A stretch of DNA of 45,066 nt from a bacterium (lineage in GTDB: Bacteria; Bacillota_I; Bacilli_A; Izemoplasmatales; Izemoplasmataceae): positions 1 through 45,066 of the forward strand of contig JAGYML010000005.1 in the NCBI GenBank assembly GCA_018400615.1, read 5' to 3'. This document shows, one piece after another, positions 27,737-44,087 of the stretch; the first letter of the stretch is position 1; each line of letters begins with the position of its first letter. The notes under the pieces are model-generated. The model was not told where the DNA came from and did not search any database. It was given only the letters and a program-made list of their open reading frames with translations. The position numbers and the translations under genes were made by a program.

Positions 27737-29149
27737 TTATTTCTGATACTCGAATACACGCACGGATTCTTCAATGGATTTCTCGTAGGCTTCCTTACCG
27801 TAATTATCGACTTCCTTGGCGTTTTTGGGTCCGTGGCTCAGACAACAAGGGCCCCCAATACAGCCACCTTCACAGGCCATGCCTTCAATGAAATTGGCTT
27901 TGAGTTTTCCGGCTTTGAGTTTTAGAAGTGCCCCTCTGGCTTCTTTGATGCCGTTGCAGGCGACGGGTTTGAAATCGAATTCGATAGACTGTTCCTTCAA
28001 GGCTTGTTCAACAGCGTCGCTGAGGCCACCGGATCGCGCAAAGATGCGTCCGTAGAAACTGGCGTTGTCAAGCGTGCTTTCCTTGAGATCAGGTAAGTTG
28101 ATTTCAAATGCGTCAATGAGTGCCTGGAGCTCTTCAAATGTGATGACATGGTCAACTTCTGTGTTCATGGCTTCTCGTTTCTTGGAGATACAAGGGCCTA
28201 TGAACATGATACCGGCATTGGGGTGCAATTCACGGATGAAATCCGCTACGATGGCCATGGGCGATTTGTTGTGGGATACATAGGGCTTGAGTGATGGGAA
28301 GTGTTTGTCGACATAGGCTACGAATGACGGACAACACGAACTGGTGAGGACCCCTTTTTGTGAGAGTTCCTTCGCTTCTTCCATGGCTGCATAATCCGCA
28401 CCAAGGGCCGCTTCAACCACATCGTCCACCCCGAGCATCTTGATACCGGTAATGACTTGTCCAAGAGAAGCGTAGGAAAATTGTGATGCAATGGAGGGTG
28501 CGACAATGGCGAAAATGCGTGTATCCTCCAGAGACTTGTTTTTGAACATCTTTACGGTTTCTGAAATTTCAGAGGTATCGCTGATGGCTCCAAAAGGACA
28601 TTGGTAGACACAGGCGCCGCATTCGATGCATTTTTCTTCATTGATCTTTGCGGCGTTGTTTTCATCCATGGTTATGGCATCCACATTGCAGGCTTTGACG
28701 CAAGGGCGTTCCTGTTTGATGATGGCGCTGTAGGGACAGACTTTCTCACAGCGTCCACACTCAATGCATTTCTCTTTGTCGATGACTGCGCGGTGGTGGA
28801 CATCAAAGCTGATGGCATCTTTGGGACAGGCTTTTTCACATCTGTGTGCGATGCAGCCACGACACGCTGCTGTAACTTCATATCCACCTACGGGACATTC
28901 ATCGCAGGCTTCTTCGATGACTTCGACTTTCAGGTCGCTCTCCTTGCGCCCTCCCAGTGCGAGTGACACGCGTTCTGTAAGGATATGGCGTTCCTTGTAG
29001 ACGCAACATCTGAAATGCGGTGTCTTACCAGGGATAATCTCGAAGGGAATGTCTCGGTAGGCGTTGACAAGGTCATCGTGCATGGCGTGTTTGGCTACGC
29101 CTTTCAAGACTTTGTATTTGAGTTCCTGGACTTTCGTGTCGAATAACAT
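27737..29149 (-). CDS. [FeFe]-hydrogenase, group-B-like, monomeric, with N-terminal ferredoxin-type clusters
   Basis: H-cluster motifs TSSCCPSFV, GPCISKKREA, EGMACEGGCIGGPC; several CxxCxxCxxxCP 4Fe-4S motifs. Confidence 0.88.
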   Translation of the reverse strand: MLFDTKVQELKYKVLKGVAKHAMHDDLVNAYRDIPFEIIPGKTPHFRCCVYKERHILTERVSLALGGRKESDLKVEVIEEACDECPVGGYEVTAACRGCIAHRCEKACPKDAISFDVHHRAVIDKEKCIECGRCEKVCPYSAIIKQERPCVKACNVDAITMDENNAAKINEEKCIECGACVYQCPFGAISDTSEISETVKMFKNKSLEDTRIFAIVAPSIASQFSYASLGQVITGIKMLGVDDVVEAALGADYAAMEEAKELSQKGVLTSSCCPSFVAYVDKHFPSLKPYVSHNKSPMAIVADFIRELHPNAGIMFIGPCISKKREAMNTEVDHVITFEELQALIDAFEINLPDLKESTLDNASFYGRIFARSGGLSDAVEQALKEQSIEFDFKPVACNGIKEARGALLKLKAGKLKANFIEGMACEGGCIGGPCCLSHGPKNAKEVDNYGKEAYEKSIEESVRVFEYQK

Positions 29150-29160
29150 AATAATCGCTC

Positions 29161-30327
29161 CTAAAATTGACTCATGCGGACTGTTTTCCCCATGGTTTCA
29201 AGTGTGGCTTTCAAATCGGTGATGATGCGCATTTTTACAGTATGGTCGATGGGTAAATCGGGATTTTGGTGGGCTGGGTTAATGGCTTTTCCTACAAAGA
29301 AATGGATATCGGTCGCCTCTTCAAATAAAAGGTAACAAAGCTTTGAGACCGTATCGTTTTTACTTTGGAATATGAACCGTTGCGTACCTTCCAGGTGCGC
29401 TTTGGCATTTTTTAAGACGTGAGATAGGGTAATGATGCCTTCACTGACCAAATCAATGCCTTCTATTTTTCCTGCTGGGGGCAGGGATACGCTTGCAGAA
29501 GCCATGTTGACTTCGAGTGGCTTGTCCATATAGCGTGCGAACATTTGAGCCGTGGAGCCACCGCAGATAACACGCTTGCCTTTTTTTGAGAGGTAGAGGC
29601 TCATGGCCTTCTCATCTGAATCCTTGTGAGCGGGCGGTCCGACGAAAAGATTCAGATTTTTGCGCGGGGTGACTTTGAGGGCAAGTGTGGTTGTGTCATC
29701 ACCGGGTTGAAAGTGATAAAGGCTGTCACACTCGTCTATGAGGAGTTCTGCAAGCGTGCGCGCGGAATAGTCATCCATGTACATGGCTTCAAGGTATTCA
29801 ATGATATGGTGTCGTTGCCAGCCAAAATTGAGTTCGGCGCCTACTCCGGCATGTACACATCCATCACTCATGGCAAGGAGTGCATCCCCTGTTTGCAGGC
29901 CATGGGTTGCGATGGAAACCTTGCGTCCACTCATTTCAACGTGTCTGTAGTTCAGTGGATGGTGCTTACCCTGTCTTAGGATGACGGGTTCAGGGTTGTC
30001 ATAGTTGAAGATGGTGACGGTTTTTCCTTTACGAATGTGAAAAACGGTAAACGTTGAATAGGCAATATCTCTGATTTTACAGACAGGAAGGGTTTTGAGT
30101 ACGGTGTCCATGACTTCTTGTAGCGGCACGCCTTTGCCAATCATCGTCGCGATCATGGTACTTGAAAGCGTGGAAAGAATATTGGCCTTGACACCGCTTC
30201 CCAAACCGTCTGAGAGCACGAGGATTTTGTCTTTACCGGCATTTTTTTCAACTACAGTGTCTCCACACAGTTCCTCCCCTAGTTTGTGAAGGGAAAGTGT
30301 ATGGGTTTCTATACTCAGATCATTCAT
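29161..30327 (-). CDS. SpoIIE/PP2C-type serine phosphatase linked to sensory hydrogenase
   Basis: CGDTVVEK, LVLSDGLGSGVKAN, LLAMSDG, PGDDTTTLALKV; ATG 30327 overlaps the upstream ORF end by 8 nt; C-terminal extra domain. Confidence 0.85.
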   Translation of the reverse strand: MNDLSIETHTLSLHKLGEELCGDTVVEKNAGKDKILVLSDGLGSGVKANILSTLSSTMIATMIGKGVPLQEVMDTVLKTLPVCKIRDIAYSTFTVFHIRKGKTVTIFNYDNPEPVILRQGKHHPLNYRHVEMSGRKVSIATHGLQTGDALLAMSDGCVHAGVGAELNFGWQRHHIIEYLEAMYMDDYSARTLAELLIDECDSLYHFQPGDDTTTLALKVTPRKNLNLFVGPPAHKDSDEKAMSLYLSKKGKRVICGGSTAQMFARYMDKPLEVNMASASVSLPPAGKIEGIDLVSEGIITLSHVLKNAKAHLEGTQRFIFQSKNDTVSKLCYLLFEEATDIHFFVGKAINPAHQNPDLPIDHTVKMRIITDLKATLETMGKTVRMSQF

Positions 30328-31990
30328 CTTCGATAACCTTCTTGAGATTACTGAGCGCGCCTTTGGTCTCAGCCGTAGTTTCTCCCAGAAGTGAAGCAAT
30401 CTCATGGACGACACGCATCTGCTTGTCTATCACATCATCGGTGATGGCGATGGTACGTTTGTAGGCGTCTTCCTTCTGGCGTTTATGTTTGATCTCACTT
30501 GTGATGTCTCTGAGAATCGAAATGAAGATATTGAATGAAGCATCGTAGACAACGGTTTCGTCGATGTAAAGGTTATGGTCACTGAGATAGAGTGTATGGT
30601 GATACCGTTTTTTCTTGTTTTCAAGCATAGTCAAATAGGGTTCAGGATCGAGAAGCTCATGAATATGAAGGGTATTTTCTTTGATGTTTGGAACTCCGAG
30701 AAGCTGTTTGGCGGCGGGGTTCATGGTATGGACATTGAAGTCACTGTTGAAGACGAGCACGCCGTTTGGGGTGTTATGGACGATGTTGTCTGAGAAGGAT
30801 TCGGCTTTTTCTTTAAGATAGGGAAGACACATTGTGAGGTCGGCCTTACCTTGATAAACCGCTTTGGCTTTCTCTTTACAGGTATCATAGCCACACGAGC
30901 CACAGTTGAGAATCTTGGCAGGGTCGTCTTTGCCCATGCGCTTGAATATAGCCTGAATTTCTTCTTCACTCGGTTCCTTTTCATTATGAGAAAGGACATC
31001 ATAAGTCATTGTCATATTCTGATATAGAGAATGGATAGGAAAATCGCTTTTTGGGGTGTTTTGTTTGATGTTGATGATGCTTTTGAGTGGTTTTTTGGTG
31101 TGGGTGTTTCTAAGGGGGCCACCCGTACAGGAATTTTCACAGGCGCTCATTTCAATGAAGGCATTGTCAATGATGCCTTCTTCGATGTCATTCAGTGCCT
31201 GTTTGCAGGATTCAATGCCGTCGACGCTTAGGTAGTGATACGTCTCTTCATAGGCATTGAAGCTTTGAATGATGCCACCAGAAACCGGGAATGCGTTGGT
31301 CTTGCCTCTTGGGTTGTCTTTCGATTTCTTTTCCCACTCAACTTCACTGTCTTCAAGCCATGTTTTCAATTCAACGAAACTGATGACGGCGTCCATGGAC
31401 TTGGTCATTTGGGCTTCGTATTTTTTGGAAAGACAAGGGCCTATAAAAACTTTCAAAGCGTCTGGATAACGCTCTTTGAGCATTTCTGCGTGCAAGTGCA
31501 TGGGGCTTGGTGTATTTGAAAGGTAAGGGATTAGAGAAGGGTGGTGTTTTTGTATGAGCAGGTTTACTGTGGGACATGCGGAACTTATGATGATGGGGGA
31601 TGTCCCGTTTTTTATTTCATTTTCATACCGTTGTTTGACAATCGTGGCCGCTTCAGCCGTCTGAAAGACATCGGTGAACCCCAAAGCCATAAGCGCGGCT
31701 TTCATGGTTTGGAAGTCACTTTTGTAAAAATCCGAGAGGAAAGAAGGGGCGATGGACACAACGACTTGTTGCTTTTGCAGTAACCAGTTTTTCACAAAGT
31801 CCATATCACTTTGAACGGCCTTAGCGTCCTGAGGACAGGCGTTTTTACATAGTCCGCAATAGATACAGTCATCACTGATGATCTGCGCTTGGTTGTCCTT
31901 GAAGGAAATGGCTTTGACAGGGCAGGTTCTTATGCACTTGTAACAGTTCTCACAGTCATTGGCGAGGGTTCTTATCAGTTCCATAATCAT
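30320..31990 (-). CDS. Sensory [FeFe]-hydrogenase (group C/HydS-like) with C-terminal 4Fe-4S and PAS domains
   Basis: IISSACPTV (Ala in place of the proton-relay Cys), GPCLSKKYEA, EMSACENSCTGGP; LNCGSCGYDTCKEKA...MCLPY Fe-S domain; PAS-like NTPNGVLVFNSDFNVHTMNPAAKQLLG. Confidence 0.88.
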   Translation of the reverse strand: MIMELIRTLANDCENCYKCIRTCPVKAISFKDNQAQIISDDCIYCGLCKNACPQDAKAVQSDMDFVKNWLLQKQQVVVSIAPSFLSDFYKSDFQTMKAALMALGFTDVFQTAEAATIVKQRYENEIKNGTSPIIISSACPTVNLLIQKHHPSLIPYLSNTPSPMHLHAEMLKERYPDALKVFIGPCLSKKYEAQMTKSMDAVISFVELKTWLEDSEVEWEKKSKDNPRGKTNAFPVSGGIIQSFNAYEETYHYLSVDGIESCKQALNDIEEGIIDNAFIEMSACENSCTGGPLRNTHTKKPLKSIINIKQNTPKSDFPIHSLYQNMTMTYDVLSHNEKEPSEEEIQAIFKRMGKDDPAKILNCGSCGYDTCKEKAKAVYQGKADLTMCLPYLKEKAESFSDNIVHNTPNGVLVFNSDFNVHTMNPAAKQLLGVPNIKENTLHIHELLDPEPYLTMLENKKKRYHHTLYLSDHNLYIDETVVYDASFNIFISILRDITSEIKHKRQKEDAYKRTIAITDDVIDKQMRVVHEIASLLGETTAETKGALSNLKKVIEDE

Positions 31991-32231
31991 CCAGCTTTCT
32001 GAGGACTAAGTCATTAAATACGGAATCGAAGGTTTCCAAGGTGATTTGTTTACAGGGACCCTCATCAATTTTGAAAGAGACGGCATTCATGCAGTTGTTC
32101 AGACAAAAAGAGGCTTTGAGTTCCACGGTGTTCTCTAGTGAATGGGTTTCAATTGCTTGTTTGAATCGTTCAATGATTTCATACGAATTTTTCAAGTGAC
32201 AGCTGCTTCCCACACATACGGCTATAACCAT
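31956..32231 (-). CDS. Thioredoxin-like [2Fe-2S] ferredoxin (NuoE C-domain-like)
   Basis: CVGSSCHLKNS ... CLNNCMNAVSFKID motif; 91 aa. Confidence 0.8.
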   Translation of the reverse strand: MVIAVCVGSSCHLKNSYEIIERFKQAIETHSLENTVELKASFCLNNCMNAVSFKIDEGPCKQITLETFDSVFNDLVLRKLDDYGTDKNPRQ

Positions 32232-32232
32232 G

Positions 32233-32865
32233 TTATTTTTCCTCCTTGTTTCGGAGCTTAGAGGATAAAAAGGCTAGGCTCTCGGCCATGTTTTCGTTGT
32301 AGACAATGACGTCTTCAGGCACAGAAAGGTGGACCGGAGCAAAATTCCAAATGGCTTTGACACCACTGTCAACAAGGGCGTCACACACACCCTGAGCAGA
32401 CTTTGAAGGTGTCACGATGATACCGATTTGTACGTGAAGACGCGTGACGAGCTGCCGGAGCTTGTTGACGTGATAGATTGGCACCCCGCTTTGCATTTCG
32501 GGGGTATGGGCCCGCGTATCAAAGGCCAGCACAATTTTCATGTTGTATTCCCGAAACCCTTCATAAGACAAAAGTGCGGATCCAAGACGCCCTACACCTA
32601 CAAGAACTGCTTGAGAGAAGTCATTATAGCCTAGGAAACCTTCCAAATCATCAATGAGTCGTTTGACATCGCGACCCTGATTTGGAACGCCAGGCGTATC
32701 ACTGACTGTTTGAAGATCCTTTCTCACTTGAATGGAAGAAAGTCCCAGATCTTCTGCAATACGAGAAGAAGAGCAGAACGCAATTCCGGTATCGTGATAC
32801 TTGCGCAAGAGCATCAGATAATTTGGTAGTCGCCTTAACATAGGCTGTGAAACGGTTTTAGACAT
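32233..32865 (-). CDS. rex: Redox-sensing transcriptional repressor Rex
   Basis: RRLPNYLMLLRKY, SSIQVRKDLQ, VLVGVGRLGSALLSY Rossmann motif; GAGGTG SD upstream of ATG 32865. Confidence 0.93.
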   Translation of the reverse strand: MSKTVSQPMLRRLPNYLMLLRKYHDTGIAFCSSSRIAEDLGLSSIQVRKDLQTVSDTPGVPNQGRDVKRLIDDLEGFLGYNDFSQAVLVGVGRLGSALLSYEGFREYNMKIVLAFDTRAHTPEMQSGVPIYHVNKLRQLVTRLHVQIGIIVTPSKSAQGVCDALVDSGVKAIWNFAPVHLSVPEDVIVYNENMAESLAFLSSKLRNKEEK

Positions 32866-32907
32866 AAAGCACCTCGCATACGATATTTTTTTATCGATTT
32901 CAACTTC

Positions 32908-32936
32908 AGTATACACACTGGTAATCTGTATTACAA
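32908..32936 (-). promoter_or_regulatory. rex operon promoter
   Basis: Minus strand TTGTAA-N17-TATACT. Confidence 0.6.
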
Positions 32937-33087: not shown

Positions 33088-33597
33088 ATGAAAGAAAAAG
33101 TGTTGGATGTATCGAATTTGGATCAAGACGCACTCAAGAGTCTTGACAAGCACATTGATTCTTTAAAAGGGTCGAATGAGAAGGAAACACTTATCCCGGT
33201 CCTTTACAAAGCTCAAGAACTTTTTGGCTATCTTCCTCACAATCTTCAACGTCATATTGCCATGAAGATGGATTTGCCGAGTGCGCATGTCAATGGGGTT
33301 GTGACATTTTACAGTTTCTTCTCCGAGCACCCGACTGGCACCTATACGGTCAGTGTATGCATGGGAACGGCATGTTATGTAAAAGGCGCCAAGGATGTAC
33401 TCGAACGTGTCAAGAAACTTACAGGGGCGAGTGAAGAATCGATGAGTGATGATGGCCTTTTTTCCATTAAAGACGTGCGTTGCATTGGGGCGTGTGGTCT
33501 GGCGCCCGTCATGACCATCAATGATGAGGTTTATGGAAAACTCAAACCTGACGATGTGGATGATATCATTGCGCGATACAAGGAGGACAACCAATGA
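33088..33597 (+). CDS. NuoE-like [2Fe-2S] subunit of trimeric [FeFe]-hydrogenase (HydC/HndA-like)
   Basis: VVTFYSFF, CMGTACYVKGA, CIGACGLAPVMTIND motifs. Confidence 0.92.
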   Translation: MKEKVLDVSNLDQDALKSLDKHIDSLKGSNEKETLIPVLYKAQELFGYLPHNLQRHIAMKMDLPSAHVNGVVTFYSFFSEHPTGTYTVSVCMGTACYVKGAKDVLERVKKLTGASEESMSDDGLFSIKDVRCIGACGLAPVMTINDEVYGKLKPDDVDDIIARYKEDNQ

Positions 33598-35402
33598 AAA
33601 TTGATAGTAGAAAAGCCTTGAAATTCTACAAGGATAAGATCAATGCCAACAATCAATACACCTTGACCCTTTATGTATGTGCTGGGACTTCTTGTGTATC
33701 ATCCAAAAGTGTCGAAATTGCGGATCGTTTAAAGGCTGAGATTGATAAGAAAGGGCTTTCTGTGGAGATGAACGTTGTGAAAACCGGCTGTTTTGGTTTT
33801 TGCGGTCAAGGCCCCATCATTGAGATTGAGCCAGATAAGGTCACCTATGTTCAAGTTACCGTTGATGATGTGGAAGACATCGTAAAAACGCATCTCATGA
33901 ATAGGGAAATCGTGGAAAGACTTACCTATGACATGACGGACGAAGGCGATTATGAGATGGCCTTTTACAAGAAACAAAAAAGAATTGCCTTGAGGCATTG
34001 CGGTGCCATCGATCCTGAAAGTCTCGAGGATGCGATTGCGCATGGAGGCTATGAAGCATTGGCTTACGCTCTTTATGATCTAACCCCTGATGAAGTGATT
34101 GGTATTATCAAGGATTCGGGGCTTCGCGGTCGAGGAGGCGGGGGCTTCCCAACAGGCCTCAAATGGCAGTTTACAAAAGCCGTGGAAGATGAAGAAAAAT
34201 ATGTTATCTGCAATGCGGATGAAGGGGACCCCGGTGCATTCATGGACCGCTCCATTTGCGAAGGGGATCCTCACGCAATCATTGAAGCGATGGCCATAAA
34301 TGGGTACGCCACAGGGGCGAAAAACGGTCTTATCTATATAAGAGCCGAATACACCCTTGCGACCAAACGTCTCTTGAAGGCACTCAAGGATGCAAGAGAC
34401 GCTGGATTCCTCGGTAACAATGTATTTGGAACGGATTTTTCCTTTGATATAGAACTCAAAGCGGGCGCGGGCGCGTTTGTGTGTGGTGAAGAAACTGCAC
34501 TGATTCATTCAATGGAAGGCCTTCGCGGAGAACCGACTGTCAAGCCCCCGTTTCCAAGTGAAAGTGGCTTCAGAGGAAAACCCTCAAACGTCAATAACGT
34601 GGAAACCTATGCAAACATTCCGATTATACTTGTCAAAGGAGCTGAATGGTTCAACAAGATAGGTACTGAGAAATCCAAAGGGACGAAAGTGTTCGCTCTA
34701 GCAGGGAACGTGCGCAATATTGGGCTTGTTGAAGTTCCTATGGGGACGACTTTCCGTGAAATCATTTATGATATCGGAGGCGGTATTCCTGATGATATTC
34801 CTTTCAAAGGCGTGCAGATTGGGGGCCCATCTGGTGGGGTCATCACAGAAGAGTACCTCGATACGCCGATTGATTACGACTCCTTGAAGGAAGTCGGCGC
34901 CATGATGGGCTCAGGCGGTATGATTATCATGGATGAAAAGACCGATATGGTTGAAATCGCGAAGTTCTATCTGGATTTCACCCAGGATGAATCCTGTGGT
35001 AAATGCACACCCTGTAGAATTGGTACGAAAAGGTTGCATGAAATGCTTGAAAAACTCACAAACATGGAAGGCTCGCCTGAAGATCTTGAATTGCTTGAAG
35101 AGCTCGCACTTAATGTACAAAACACTTCCTTGTGTGGGCTCGGACAATCCGCACCCAACCCCGTCCTTTCAACCTTAAGGTTTTTCAGGAATGAATATGA
35201 GGCCTACGCCAACCGGGAAAAACCCCATGGCTACAGAGTCATCGAAGAAGAATGCATTGGATGTACCAAGTGCAAGCGTGTCTGTCCAGTTGACGCCATC
35301 AGCGGTGAAGTCAAGAAACCGCATAGCATCGATCAGTCAATCTGTATTGAATGTGGCGCCTGTATCGAGGCCTGTCCAAAAGGAGCCATTGTCTATGAAT
35401 AA
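33594..35402 (+). CDS. NuoF-like FMN/NADH-binding subunit of trimeric [FeFe]-hydrogenase (HydB/HndC-like)
   Basis: GLRGRGGGGFPTGLKW, NADEGDPGAFMDR, SCGKCTPCRIGTKR, C-terminal 2x[4Fe-4S]. Confidence 0.95.
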   Translation: MKIDSRKALKFYKDKINANNQYTLTLYVCAGTSCVSSKSVEIADRLKAEIDKKGLSVEMNVVKTGCFGFCGQGPIIEIEPDKVTYVQVTVDDVEDIVKTHLMNREIVERLTYDMTDEGDYEMAFYKKQKRIALRHCGAIDPESLEDAIAHGGYEALAYALYDLTPDEVIGIIKDSGLRGRGGGGFPTGLKWQFTKAVEDEEKYVICNADEGDPGAFMDRSICEGDPHAIIEAMAINGYATGAKNGLIYIRAEYTLATKRLLKALKDARDAGFLGNNVFGTDFSFDIELKAGAGAFVCGEETALIHSMEGLRGEPTVKPPFPSESGFRGKPSNVNNVETYANIPIILVKGAEWFNKIGTEKSKGTKVFALAGNVRNIGLVEVPMGTTFREIIYDIGGGIPDDIPFKGVQIGGPSGGVITEEYLDTPIDYDSLKEVGAMMGSGGMIIMDEKTDMVEIAKFYLDFTQDESCGKCTPCRIGTKRLHEMLEKLTNMEGSPEDLELLEELALNVQNTSLCGLGQSAPNPVLSTLRFFRNEYEAYANREKPHGYRVIEEECIGCTKCKRVCPVDAISGEVKKPHSIDQSICIECGACIEACPKGAIVYE

Positions 35403-35440
35403 TTCGTTGAATGACAAACATAACGTGAAGGAGGGTCTTT

Positions 35441-37195
35441 ATGAACTTAATCGATAAAATGGTGTCGGTTTCAATTAATGGCATAAGCGTCAATGTTCAA
35501 AAGGACACAACCGTTCTTGAGGCCGCAAAAAAAGTAGGCGTTGAAATTCCAACGCTTTGTCATATGGATATGCACGAATTTGGTGTAGTGAATCAAAACG
35601 CCAACTGCCGAGTATGTGTGGTTGAAGACAAGAAATCAGGCAGACTCGTTCCTTCATGTGCCCAAAAGGTCTATGACGGCATGGAAGTTGATACGGATAG
35701 CATCAAGGCCGTCATGGGACGCAGAAGCAGTCTTGAACTTCTTTTATCAAATCATCCTCAGGATTGTCTTACGTGCGTGAAGAATCTCGACTGTGAACTT
35801 CAAAAGCTCGCAGATGATATGAACATCCGCAAGATTCACTACGAGGGGGAGAAGATGGATCATCCAATCGACATCTCCTCAGGCGCCATTATCAAAGACC
35901 CCAACAAATGCATCATGTGCAGACGGTGCATCACAATGTGTGATGAAGTACAAACCGTCGGGGTCCTTTCACCCCTCGAAAGAGGGTTTGACGTGGTCAC
36001 CTCTACTGCGTTTTATCTTGACCTCAATCAGACGAGCTGTACCTACTGCGGACAATGTGTTTCGGTGTGCCCTACAGGGGCCCTAGCAGAAGTGGATGCC
36101 ACCCCGAAAGTATGGCGAACTCTCAACAACCCCAACCGTCACACAGTCGTTCAGATTGCGCCGGCTGTACGCGTGGCACTGGGTGAGGAGTTCGGGATGG
36201 AACCTGGAGAAATATCCACAGGTAAAATCATACGAGCCCTTAGAAGACTTGGCTTTGATACGGTTTTCGATACGAATTTCGGGGCAGACCTCACCATAGT
36301 CGAAGAGGCCCATGAATTGATCGACCGTATCGAGAAAGGTGGAAGACTTCCCATGCTGACGTCTTGTTGTCCTGCCTGGGTTCAATTCATCGAACATCAA
36401 TTCCCTGATTTGCTGGATGTGCCATCTTCCTGCAAATCGCCGCAATCGATGGTAGGCACGCTTACCAAGACCTACTATGCAAACAAGACAGGCATCGATC
36501 CCACTAAAATCAGAAACATCGCCGTTATGCCTTGCATAGCCAAAAAGGCCGAGGCCGCACGAGAAGAGTTAAGAGACAATGGCATGAAGAACGTTGACCA
36601 TGTCATTACGACCCGAGAACTCGCGAGAATGATCAAGGAAGCGTCCATTGATTTCACAAGACTCGAAGAGGATACGTTTGACAATCTGCTTGGTGAATCC
36701 ACAGGGGCCTCAAGCATCTTCGGCGCCACGGGTGGGGTTATCGAAGCAGCTACGAGGACTGCCTATGAAATGATTACAGGCAAGGAGTTAGTCAATGTTG
36801 ATTTTAAAGAAATGCGAGGAATGAAAGGTATCAGGAAAGCCTCTATTGATCTGGGTGAGCGGACATTGAATATCGGCATCGCCCACGAACTCGGCAATGC
36901 ACGTAAACTTCTTGAAAGCATTCAAAAAGGTGAAAGTGATTTCGATGCGATTGAAATCATGGCCTGCCCCGGAGGCTGTGTGGGTGGAGGCGGACAGCCT
37001 TATCACCACGGAGACTTCTCCATTGTTGAGAAAAGGCGACAAGCACTTTACAACCTTGACACATCCATGAAGCGCCGTAAAAGTCATGAAAACCGTATGG
37101 TACAGAAACTGTATAAAGACTTTTTGGATAGTCCGGGTAGTGATAAAGCGCATCATTTATTACACACTTCTTATAGTTCCAAAGAACGAATCTAA
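35441..37195 (+). CDS. Catalytic subunit of trimeric, probably electron-bifurcating [FeFe]-hydrogenase (group A, HydA/HndD-like)
   Basis: TSCCPAWVQF, MPCIAKKAEA, EIMACPGGCVGGGGQP; N-terminal [2Fe-2S], His-Cys3 and 2x[4Fe-4S] motifs. Confidence 0.95.
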   Translation: MNLIDKMVSVSINGISVNVQKDTTVLEAAKKVGVEIPTLCHMDMHEFGVVNQNANCRVCVVEDKKSGRLVPSCAQKVYDGMEVDTDSIKAVMGRRSSLELLLSNHPQDCLTCVKNLDCELQKLADDMNIRKIHYEGEKMDHPIDISSGAIIKDPNKCIMCRRCITMCDEVQTVGVLSPLERGFDVVTSTAFYLDLNQTSCTYCGQCVSVCPTGALAEVDATPKVWRTLNNPNRHTVVQIAPAVRVALGEEFGMEPGEISTGKIIRALRRLGFDTVFDTNFGADLTIVEEAHELIDRIEKGGRLPMLTSCCPAWVQFIEHQFPDLLDVPSSCKSPQSMVGTLTKTYYANKTGIDPTKIRNIAVMPCIAKKAEAAREELRDNGMKNVDHVITTRELARMIKEASIDFTRLEEDTFDNLLGESTGASSIFGATGGVIEAATRTAYEMITGKELVNVDFKEMRGMKGIRKASIDLGERTLNIGIAHELGNARKLLESIQKGESDFDAIEIMACPGGCVGGGGQPYHHGDFSIVEKRRQALYNLDTSMKRRKSHENRMVQKLYKDFLDSPGSDKAHHLLHTSYSSKERI

Positions 37196-37243: not shown

Positions 37244-37954
37244 TTAATCTTTGTTTGAATCATCGTTATTTTTATAATACGCCTCTTTCAATGGTTTAAT
37301 CATCGGTTCATATGCTTGAAGGGCGTCCTTACCACGACTTGTGATTTCATAGACGCCTCGGCTGACACGGTTGAACCAGCCGTAATGGTTTTTCTGCAGG
37401 ATATCAACGACCTTCTTGCGATTGGTGTAGTCTCTTAATGCCTTGGTGCTTCTTGGCTCATTCTTCATATAATCAAGTGCCAGCAAGGCGAGTTCTCTGT
37501 AAGCGGTCATGATTTTGGTTTTGTGAGACCCTCCGATATTGGTGTCGGTAGTCCTTGCATGGAACTCTTTCAGTAAAGCCTGCTTTTTCTTCTTTCTATT
37601 TCTTACGGTATAGGCAGTAGGATCAAGCCAGAAATTGAGTGTATTGTATTTGGTGTCCACAAGAATAAGTCCCAGTTGCAGATGCTTTAATATCAGACAC
37701 TTGTCTTTGAAAGTTCGTGATTTCAATACCTTGTCTGTGGGTTTTGGAATGCTCAGATACACCAAGTCACCCATGGGGTTCCTTCTGATGCCTTGTGCAA
37801 TAAGCAAAGTGTTGAACGACGTCTTCATTTCTATGAGAACGACTGAATTATTTTTGATTGCCATGAGGTCCACATCATTGACCTCACCTTTGACGGTAAA
37901 GCCTTTGTTCTCAAAATACTTTTTTAAGATAGGGTACATGTCTTTTTCCATCAT
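37244..37954 (-). CDS. DUF2161-like / PDDEXK-nuclease-like protein
   Basis: VNDVDLMAIKNNSVVLIEMKTSFNTLL (D...ExK core) plus C-terminal wHTH-like segment. Confidence 0.6.
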   Translation of the reverse strand: MMEKDMYPILKKYFENKGFTVKGEVNDVDLMAIKNNSVVLIEMKTSFNTLLIAQGIRRNPMGDLVYLSIPKPTDKVLKSRTFKDKCLILKHLQLGLILVDTKYNTLNFWLDPTAYTVRNRKKKKQALLKEFHARTTDTNIGGSHKTKIMTAYRELALLALDYMKNEPRSTKALRDYTNRKKVVDILQKNHYGWFNRVSRGVYEITSRGKDALQAYEPMIKPLKEAYYKNNDDSNKD

Positions 37955-38049: not shown

Positions 38050-38099
38050 AAAAAAACACTTTGAGAGGCTTAAAACTGTACGCCCTCAAAGTGTTTTTA
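38050..38099. terminator. Terminator downstream of the NDQ rhodopsin gene
   Basis: AAAAACACTTTGAGAGGC ... GCCCTCAAAGTGTTTTT. Confidence 0.75.
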
Positions 38100-38121: not shown

Positions 38122-38922
38122 CTAGGCTTCTTCGAAACCCTGTTCTTTTGAAAGCCTTGTTGCTACGACGGTTAAAATCACGCCATAAATGATTTTGGAA
38201 GAGATATCGGCGATGGTATAGATAGCTTGTTGCAAGACGAGTGCCATACCAAGCAGATCTGCATTGTTGGCTGCGATTACCGGGACAATGTACGCGATGG
38301 GATAGATGCTCCATGCTACATAGAATAGCGGTAATATGACGGCGAAAAGCGGTTGTGCGGATGAGCCTTTCATGTTGTTTTTGCCTTCTTTGATGACCTG
38401 AGTGATTTTCATCAATACCACTACATAGAATGCCGTAGAGATAAGCCCCCAGATAATCCACCATAGGATGTTTTCGGTGTCTCTACCCGGTTCAAAGAAC
38501 TGCCCTATGTAACCGGTGATGATCATCAGGGTACCCGAAGTTGCAAAGGCCACGAAATATTTCTTGAAGGCCAAACCGGTAATACCTGCGACGAACAGAA
38601 TCTGAATCAGCAACATAGGCACATCGATGAGCCAGTTCAAGTAGCGGAATCCATTGCTGAATAGTGCGTTTGTAGCCTCGTAACCATCACGGGCCGCATT
38701 TAATACGAACGCATCCTGCCAGCTTTGTTGTTGCATGAATAGTAGGATTGCTGCAGAGACCATAACCACCACACTGAGTACATTTGAAGGGCGGTATTTG
38801 GGTGCACTGTTGTTCTTCGTTAGAATAAAGAAAAACAATGAAGCCGCCATCGCTGCGTAACCCAAAGTCAAAACGTGTGAAACGAATTCAAACTGCCAAA
38901 CTTCTAAACTGATGTTAGCCAA
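38122..38922 (-). CDS. NDQ-type (KR2-like) light-driven sodium-pump rhodopsin
   Basis: Helix C RYLNWLIDVPMLLIQ = N96/D100/Q107 (KR2 N112/D116/Q123); helix G YTIADISSKIIYG with D239/K243 (KR2 D251/K255); H16 = KR2 H30; SNVLSVVVMVSA and MIITGYIGQF match remembered KR2. TTG start with AAGGGGG SD. Confidence 0.95.
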   Translation of the reverse strand: MANISLEVWQFEFVSHVLTLGYAAMAASLFFFILTKNNSAPKYRPSNVLSVVVMVSAAILLFMQQQSWQDAFVLNAARDGYEATNALFSNGFRYLNWLIDVPMLLIQILFVAGITGLAFKKYFVAFATSGTLMIITGYIGQFFEPGRDTENILWWIIWGLISTAFYVVVLMKITQVIKEGKNNMKGSSAQPLFAVILPLFYVAWSIYPIAYIVPVIAANNADLLGMALVLQQAIYTIADISSKIIYGVILTVVATRLSKEQGFEEA

Positions 38923-38961
38923 AATAATGTCCCCCTTATTATTTATACTTATTGTAATTAG

Positions 38962-38990
38962 ATAATACTACGGACGATTAAAGCTATCAA
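38962..38990 (-). promoter_or_regulatory. Sigma-A-type promoter of the NDQ rhodopsin gene
   Basis: Minus strand TTGATA-N17-TATTAT. Confidence 0.65.
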
Positions 38991-41551: not shown

Positions 41552-41753
41552 TTAGTAGGGGGCTACTCAACCAATCCCATGGTTCAATTCAAGCGAATGC
41601 TTTGTTTGAATTTAGAAATAATAAGTGATAAAATTTAAGTAGATAACAATTTGATGCGTCTAACGCACATACACCCTCGAATACAGCCTATAATGGATGT
41701 GTATTCGATTTTTGTTTTAAAGAGTGTATTATATAAATTTGGAGGTCGGAAAC

Positions 41754-44087
41754 ATGAAAAAGATTTTTACAGCCATCGCCACAATGCTTTTGGCACTGAC
41801 ACTCGTAGCTTGTGATCCAAGCACCGAGGAAGGTTTTGTAGACATTACGTTGCAAAGTGATGTCACAGAAGCGCAGTTGTCACAAAATCCATCCAATGTG
41901 ACTGAAGGCATGGATGTGACTGTGACCGCCAGTGAAGTGGATGGGTATGCATTTTCCGCCTGGGTAAATACGGAAAACGGCACTGAACTTTCAACTGAAA
42001 GGACGTATACTTTCAATGTTGAAGAACCATTGACGCTTGAGGCGGTCTATGAAGAAGCTCAAAACGAAGAGCCCTCACTCAGCCTTTCAAGCAATGTGTC
42101 GGGTGAAAGCTGGACAGTATCAGATCAAGGGCCCTATGAAAATGGGGATGAAGTGCTTGTTGAAGCTGATGAAAAAGATACGTTCACCTTTGTTCATTGG
42201 ATAGACAAGGCGTCTGAGACGGTTGTCAGTGAAGAGAGAAGCTTTACTTACACAATCGATGGAGACACGACCCTTGAGGCCGTGTACGAAGACACTCTTG
42301 AACCGAGCGAACGTACAGCGCAAACCGTAGTCGACGAAGCTACGAGTGATACGGCGTATCTTGATACACTGATGAGTGACTTCAATACGGATGAGGGAAT
42401 GGCTATGAGTATGCACATGGCCTTCGAACAAAAAGACCCAGACACCAGTGAAACTGTTGTGTATGACATGCAGGTTGATTTGAGCACTACCACCAGCGAT
42501 GAAAGTACACTTACCAAGCTGAATATGTCCATGGAAACACCTGACATGCCACAAAGCCCATTGAACATGACGGTGTTCATGGAAGAAAATGCGCAGTCCA
42601 CGACGATTACTATGGATGCACAGATGCTGCTTGACATGATTCAAGACCAGGAAGAAGGCATTGATTTAAGAACGCTTCTGGACTTGAACAGCGATTACAT
42701 CCATTATACGATTCCCCATGATTTGGAGGGAACTGATCAGGAAGTTATCCTCGATCAGTTGATGGATGAACTGTACATTGAATTGTATGGACCCGATTAT
42801 AATGAAGAAGATCTTCCTGATTTGGATCAGGCGAGTTTGAATACGCTTTTTGAAAACATGCGCGACATGATGACGTTCATGAGCTTTGCCCATCTATCAG
42901 AATATGATGATGTTGAACTCACGATGGACCGTGAAGGCGCAATAGCCAAAGGCACCCTTTCCATGGGTGGTGATGCACTTGAAGCTTTCGCAAGAGACTT
43001 GTTTGAAGAAGTCTATACTACTTTGGAATTGCTGGATGAAAACGATGAACTCACGCCTTATTCAGACTACATTACTTCACAGGAATACACTATGGCCATG
43101 GGAATCATTGGGGTCATTCCGGATATCAACATCTTTTTGGATTACGATGCTGAAAATGAAATCATGAACATCGATGTGGATGTTTACACGCTCTTGAATT
43201 TCTTCATGGAAGGCACAAGCGGATTTGAAAATGTGTCTGATATTACCATGGAGATGGCCATGGATAAAGGTGTCACCATTGATGATAGTATAACGGAGTC
43301 TGAAAGCCTTGAAAGCATCGTTGAAGAATTCGTGCAAATCATGACGGTCGTTGACTCAAAGGCTTACTTTGGAGCGGTTGCAAGTGATGGAGAGATTCCA
43401 CTCGGTACCCACACCCTTGAAGAACTGGAAAGTATGGGACACGCTTTTGACATTCCGTATATCGATAAGACAAAGAGCACTTTGGAACTCGTTGAAGAGG
43501 ATTCCACCAGTTCACCAACCTACCTCATTAGACTTTATTATACTCATAGTGGTGAACCGGTATTCGTCAATACACCAATCTCTCTGAGCGCTATTGACAC
43601 GGTTCTTGAAAACGAACCGACCACAAGAGAAGACGTCCTCGATATACTTGCGCTTGTGGACGATGAACATTTTGAACTCTATTCCGTAATGGGCAGCATG
43701 ATTGATCAGTTAATGGAAGAAGCGGTCGTTGAGGAACCCGATGTGCCACTTCCAGAAAGCGACCTGGTCACAGCCAGCGAACCTGATTTCTTTACCCGAT
43801 ATACAGGCTCGATATTGACTGATTTCAACACGCCTGATGATACAACGGACTTGTATTTTTACGCAGTGGACGCAACCCCTGAAGATGTAAAAACATTCTA
43901 TTCGGATTATTACACATCCGCTGATGAATGGAGTGTAGCCCAGGAAGAACAAACCAGCGATGGGTACACGCTGAATTATTATAGTGAAACAGTTGGGTAC
44001 AGTTTACAAATCAATATTTCAAACACCAGTGACTATGATTCAGGTATTCAATACAGCGTGTATGTGATTGATATGTACACGGTTTAG
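41754..44087 (+). CDS. Acidic lipoprotein with two N-terminal InlB B-repeat (Listeria-Bacteroides) domains
   Basis: Lipobox ALTLVACDP; repeats YAFSAWVNTENGTELSTERTYTFNVEEPLTLEAVYEE and FTFVHWIDKASETVVSEERSFTYTIDGDTTLEAVYED; long Met/Asp/Glu-rich remainder. Confidence 0.8.
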   Translation: MKKIFTAIATMLLALTLVACDPSTEEGFVDITLQSDVTEAQLSQNPSNVTEGMDVTVTASEVDGYAFSAWVNTENGTELSTERTYTFNVEEPLTLEAVYEEAQNEEPSLSLSSNVSGESWTVSDQGPYENGDEVLVEADEKDTFTFVHWIDKASETVVSEERSFTYTIDGDTTLEAVYEDTLEPSERTAQTVVDEATSDTAYLDTLMSDFNTDEGMAMSMHMAFEQKDPDTSETVVYDMQVDLSTTTSDESTLTKLNMSMETPDMPQSPLNMTVFMEENAQSTTITMDAQMLLDMIQDQEEGIDLRTLLDLNSDYIHYTIPHDLEGTDQEVILDQLMDELYIELYGPDYNEEDLPDLDQASLNTLFENMRDMMTFMSFAHLSEYDDVELTMDREGAIAKGTLSMGGDALEAFARDLFEEVYTTLELLDENDELTPYSDYITSQEYTMAMGIIGVIPDINIFLDYDAENEIMNIDVDVYTLLNFFMEGTSGFENVSDITMEMAMDKGVTIDDSITESESLESIVEEFVQIMTVVDSKAYFGAVASDGEIPLGTHTLEELESMGHAFDIPYIDKTKSTLELVEEDSTSSPTYLIRLYYTHSGEPVFVNTPISLSAIDTVLENEPTTREDVLDILALVDDEHFELYSVMGSMIDQLMEEAVVEEPDVPLPESDLVTASEPDFFTRYTGSILTDFNTPDDTTDLYFYAVDATPEDVKTFYSDYYTSADEWSVAQEEQTSDGYTLNYYSETVGYSLQINISNTSDYDSGIQYSVYVIDMYTV

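Follow-up and report, generated by a model that had tools for sequence, protein, structure and literature searches.

Since oxygen is required to make retinal, retinal phototrophy is usually associated with oxic waters. Among the NDQ rhodopsins, an interprotomer Na+ site at D102 of KR2 is typical of subgroup 1, without defining it. Named members of the Bellilinea lineage (Chloroflexi) are anaerobes, and we take the rhodopsin BeNaR, going by its name and authors, to be the Bellilinea protein. BeNaR is cited as an expressed and characterised Na+-pump rhodopsin (Kurihara et al. 2023, ref. 84 in PMC10608830), and a rhodopsin gene of chemotrophic Bellilinea was described from a thermal mat, in which rhodopsin carriers are generally without a retinal-forming enzyme and a supply of retinal from neighbours was proposed (PMC5459899). 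The rhodopsins of Saccharibacteria, whose hosts lack blh, acquire retinal from outside within 30 s, and neighbours have been proposed as its source there too (PMC9296517).

Subgroup 1 of the NDQ rhodopsins is recognised by Leu or Ile at the position of KR2 L74, where ErNaR, of subgroup 2, has Glu (PMC11006869). On the extracellular side of KR2, the cluster E11-E160-R243 has been argued to serve stability and not passage, and changes in it do not abolish pumping; at low Na+, KR2 also transports H+ (PMC7195465). The mutation R243Q reduces both pumping and stability of KR2, and the D102N protein retains pumping (PMC10608830).

An NDQ-type rhodopsin gene and its relatives

When analyzing the stretch of 45,066 nucleotides described here (the window), we found an uninterrupted open reading frame of 266 aa with a TTG start at 38122..38922 on the minus strand; the earlier note had named no strand and had rightly described the frame as intact. 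The encoded protein matched the bacteriorhodopsin family in Pfam (PF01036, E=2e-40) and had no match in an NCBIfam search. A phmmer search of the PDB returned IaNaR (8jh0, 2.6e-66) and KR2 (3x3b, 3e-62) at the top, followed by ErNaR (~1e-50), a Cl- pump (~1e-48) and, far lower, xanthorhodopsin (2e-30). The AlphaFold model, built from a four-sequence alignment, reached a mean pLDDT of 48.5, and no fold search was based on it.

Alignment with KR2 from Krokinobacter eikastus revealed a complete R-N-D-Q-D-K set, with R93, N96, D100, Q107, D239 and K243 at KR2 positions 109, 112, 116, 123, 251 and 255, and this set is present in all seven rhodopsins that we found in the order Izemoplasmatales. The earlier note had assigned N96, D100, Q107, D239 and K243 to KR2 N112, D116, Q123, D251 and K255, and H16 to H30, and every position was right. 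The residues S56, L60, Q64, E144 and S242 (S70, L74, Q78, E160 and S254 in KR2) are also kept; KR2 and IaNaR are alike in the whole of this set, including the H30 equivalent.

A maximum-likelihood tree was then computed from the seven Izemoplasmatales rhodopsins and nine references, which were drawn from the hits of the PDB search and had also been used in the alignment. With these nine references, KR2 and IaNaR came out as the sister group of the seven (support 95/97), and ErNaR, the Cl- pump and the H+ pumps lay outside this clade, the H+ pumps being split off at 100/100. Joining ErNaR alone was rejected (p 0.034), while a topology joining the Cl- pump alone had a log-likelihood 7.8 lower and was not firmly rejected (AU p=0.068). 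An NTQ-type Cl- pump would be expected to carry Thr at KR2 D116, where D100 was found instead, and a DTE-type H+ pump of the xanthorhodopsin or GR kind does not fit N-D-Q at positions 112/116/123 or the separate H+-pump clade. The earlier note had called the protein an NDQ sodium-pump-type rhodopsin and asked for a phylogeny, and both motif and tree bear this reading out. Since Leu (L60) stands at the KR2 L74 position, the protein is classed in NDQ subgroup 1 by the published criterion (PMC11006869). ErNaR (8qle/9tbd) resembles the Izemoplasmatales proteins in the NDQ motif and in a long D-E loop beginning with EP, and differs from them in having Glu, not Leu, at that position. We infer from these features that the protein would act as a light-driven Na+ pump of NDQ type.

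The rhodopsin gene looks monocistronic, given that the gene upstream is divergent, that a good Shine-Dalgarno sequence precedes the start codon and that the stop codon is followed by a strong hairpin and a T run. The Shine-Dalgarno-like sequence AAGGGGGAC lies at 38929..38937 (minus strand), the last G of its run standing 8 nt ahead of the TTG, and the terminator-like hairpin at 38052..38098 (minus strand, -22.4 kcal/mol), missed by a simple scan, was recovered by folding energy (z=-6.2). These two of the signals proposed earlier held up; the third, a promoter-like TTGATA-N17-TATTAT at 38962..38990 (minus strand), is present as a string, but this 10/12 consensus match is weak evidence, because the six such sites in the stretch are hardly above the 4.0 +/- 2.0 expected by chance. 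Downstream lies a gene for a DUF2161 (putative PD-(D/E)XK) protein (37244..37954, minus strand) with no evident functional link to the rhodopsin. Elsewhere in the window, positions 41724-44087 encode a probable surface protein of 787 aa, whose InlB B-repeats are divergent.

Host genomes and distribution

The window belongs to a draft genome of Izemoplasmatales ('Ca. Izimaplasma', related to Mollicutes) of 1.37 Mb in 116 contigs, estimated as 72% complete. Rhodopsin genes were found in 7 of 90 genomes of this order, all drafts of 70-96% completeness from one family and four genera: one carrier in each of three genera (in g2, only one of six members), and all four members of a further genus, g9. 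In a draw of 392 genomes across the phylum, none outside this family had a PF01036 match above the curated cut-off, and the matches below it were disregarded. The carriers include 'Mollicutes bacterium B1Sed10_225' and 'Candidatus Izimaplasma bacterium CSBr16_87', of the same family as the window genome. The label B1Sed10 refers to surface sediment from Bitter-1, a salt-saturated soda lake of pH ~10, and soda-lake members of the 'Ca. Izimaplasma' group have been described as living anaerobically by the fermentation of simple sugars (PMC6146748).

The seven rhodopsins form one clade, and their flanking genes differ between genera. Within g9, dN/dS values of 0.035-0.053 indicate purifying selection; between genera pN/pS is 0.15-0.31 (0.15-0.19 among the three other genera), with synonymous sites saturated. 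There was no sign of a mobile carrier, since the phages and viral contigs searched held no relatives of the rhodopsin and plasmids only distant ones. A gene in a draft of 116 contigs and 72% completeness might also have come in from a Bacteroidota through an error of binning or assembly. We regard this as extremely improbable, because the genes from seven genomes form a single clade under purifying selection, six of them in other genomes of the family on contigs of up to 146 kb. The window gene itself is embedded in a 45-kb contig that also encodes a HydA sharing 70-76% identity with the HydA of many members of the family, and the GC and GC3 of the rhodopsin gene match those of its neighbours.

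The three [FeFe]-hydrogenases that had been claimed near the rhodopsin are indeed all in the window: a group A6 NADH-dependent HydA of the bifurcating type, encoded together with NuoE-like and NuoF-like proteins (33088..37195, plus strand), a monomeric group B1 enzyme (27737..29149, minus strand), and a third hydrogenase-like protein, probably sensory, that adjoins a SpoIIE-like protein (30320..31990, minus strand). The redox-sensing repressor Rex is encoded at 32233..32916 (minus strand), and the clustering of the B1 enzyme, the SpoIIE-like protein, the sensory-type hydrogenase and Rex at 27737-32916 likely marks a unit for sensing H2 and redox state. A conserved linkage between hydrogenases and rhodopsin was considered and rejected, as the rhodopsin lies elsewhere in other carriers and HydA found no match in g9, a genus that does carry the rhodopsin; only the window genome shows this hydrogenase neighbourhood. 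The four genomes of g9 (G055-G058) are 0.7-1.0 Mb in size, all with rhodopsin and none with a window-like HydA, unlike most of the family.

Neither cytochrome bd nor a haem-copper oxidase (COX1) was found in the rhodopsin-bearing draft genomes. Together with the three hydrogenases, this agrees with the fermentative host proposed earlier, and the host is apparently an anaerobic fermenter, judging from its gene content. Cytochrome bd does occur in one rhodopsin-free member of the family (G079:C1:131317-132438), so oxygen use varies within the family.

The altered extracellular side

Compared with KR2 and IaNaR, the Izemoplasmatales proteins come from an anaerobic, Mollicutes-related host and share changes where Na+ would leave. 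The position of KR2 R243 is Gln (Q231) in 7/7 proteins, the D102 site is lost (Ala in the window protein, Gln or Ser in the others), the B-C loop is shorter, and an insert EPGR in the D-E loop, at the E160 equivalent E144, is common to all seven. The loop arginine of this insert, R147, might replace the lost arginine partner of E144. A natural variant that combines R243Q with EPGR offers a test case for the disputed Na+ exit path.

These changes could mean that the protein is mainly an H+ pump, or a weak Na+/H+ pump, owing to its altered exit cluster. The presence of Q231 and the loss of D102 in all seven proteins would suit this, as would the lower activity and stability of R243Q in KR2 (PMC10608830) and the movement of H+ by KR2 at low Na+ (PMC7195465). 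We nevertheless consider it distinctly unlikely: the core residues N96, D100, Q107, S56 and D239 are all kept, the change itself is maintained under purifying selection, with EPGR beside E144 as a possible substitute for the arginine, and the habitat of the soda-lake relative is rich in Na+.

Sodium economy, retinal supply and proposed role

The c-ring ligands for Na+ in Ilyobacter are, as we take them from 1yce, Q32, E65, S/T66 and Y70. In the atp operon of the window genome (G000:C21), the c subunit carries GIGQG...AETTGLY, the first helix contributing Gln and the second Glu-Thr-Thr-Gly-Leu-Tyr, so that the Na+ ligand set is complete, and nearly all of the subunit aligns to the c rings known to be specific for Na+ in Ilyobacter (1yce/2wgm) and Acetobacterium (4bem). 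The same ligand residues were read in all 11 other genomes, with or without rhodopsin, and a Na+-driven ATP synthase therefore appears to be the ground state of the family. Because its c subunit has Na+-binding residues, a Na+ gradient made by light would be directly spendable.

The earlier note had suggested that light would bring energy otherwise unavailable to the host. This is too strong, as subunits of the RnfD/NqrB family occur in 11/11 genomes tested; since Rnf/Nqr-type subunits are present, light would only supplement an existing Na+ economy. In g9, an nqrBCDEF-like cluster lies a few kb downstream of the rhodopsin on the same strand, a layout that was read out in one genome, recurs in the arrangement of open reading frames of another and agrees in position across the four; the subunits were recognised from their sequences and a PF03116 match, not from a full family scan. 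Two of these clusters are at L036:12841-16702 (G056:C1) and L038:2285-6163 (G058:C18), with no nqrA seen alongside.

For the supply of retinal, none of the seven rhodopsin-bearing drafts (70-96% complete) had a Blh/Brp (PF15461) or a carotenoid oxygenase of the RPE65 type (PF03055), the Blh result being the softer one because its control was weak (Haloferax only, below cut-off). Given that no retinal-forming gene was found in any carrier, scavenging is the likeliest source, and the host probably obtains retinal from neighbours that produce oxygen or are aerobic. Carotenoid genes showed no special link with the rhodopsin: genes of the phytoene/squalene-synthase family occur in 5/7 carriers and in 25/49 genomes of the family, and a CrtI-family desaturase is found in several carriers, with carotenoid-type genes also in many rhodopsin-free relatives. 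In the synthase of the window genome the first Asp-rich motif is lost, KKAVR standing in place of DDAVD. Three synthase loci (L029:488-2702, L030:1254-5125 and L031:7461-11344), of which L030 and L031 include a CrtI-family desaturase, adjoin two membrane proteins, TIGR00297 (DUF92) and a phytol/dolichol kinase-like protein; such clusters may possibly serve isoprenoid-alcohol salvage feeding carotenoids.

The lack of Blh and RPE65 in these seven genomes, together with the lack of a linked carotenoid cluster in the window, might also indicate that no pumping takes place in vivo, the protein remaining an apoprotein in an anoxic habitat or sensing light or retinal. This reading seems rather unlikely to us, given the strong purifying selection, the conserved retinal lysine and counterions, and the lack of any transducer gene beside the rhodopsin. 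Furthermore, cyanobacteria and Bacteroidetes with rhodopsins live in the lake system whose surface sediment yielded the related genome, and the rhodopsins of Saccharibacteria, with no blh in their hosts, rapidly acquire retinal from outside (PMC9296517). The Saccharibacteria are also alike in combining a fermentative host with a light-driven pump and an ATP synthase, and differ in that theirs is a H+ pump with a H+-type c subunit, whereas the Izemoplasmatales have a Na+-pump signature and a Na+-type c subunit (PMC9296517).

Taken together, we consider it probable that the protein is a KR2-type outward Na+ pump in a Na+-coupled anaerobic fermenter with a Na+ ATP synthase and scavenged retinal. 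This builds on the sequence signature, the phylogeny, purifying selection, the Na+-type c subunit and the lack of a detectable retinal-forming oxygenase or terminal oxidase; Na+ transport, its coupling to ATP synthesis and retinal uptake are the inferred part. In the proposed mechanism, retinal supplied by oxygen-producing or aerobic neighbours would be isomerised by light on K243, and the Schiff-base proton would pass to D100 (KR2 D116). Na+ would then enter past Q107 and S50, bind transiently near N96, D100 and D239, and be released outside. Rnf/Nqr-type complexes and the rhodopsin would both export Na+, and the gradient would be spent by the F-type ATP synthase, whose c ring carries Na+ ligands.

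The broad idea of a Na+-pump rhodopsin in an anaerobe is not new, because BeNaR, as cited in PMC10608830, provides a precedent; like the present proteins it comes from a host lineage regarded as anaerobic, and it differs in its phylum (Chloroflexi) and its thermal mat habitat. Among open-access papers, leaving aside the supplementary list of NDQ sequences in PMC11006869, we found none that reports rhodopsins in Mollicutes or in the order Izemoplasmatales. What sets the present protein apart is a clade-specific variation and an unusual host. We tentatively suggest, as a picture that may or may not hold in full, that obligately anaerobic, Mollicutes-related fermenters are partly fed by light through an all-sodium circuit, with a rebuilt exit (Gln231 and EPGR), a Na+ ATP synthase and scavenged retinal. 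If so, light-driven Na+ bioenergetics would reach the part of the tree around the Mollicutes, and the sharing of retinal by aerobes with anaerobes would become testable.
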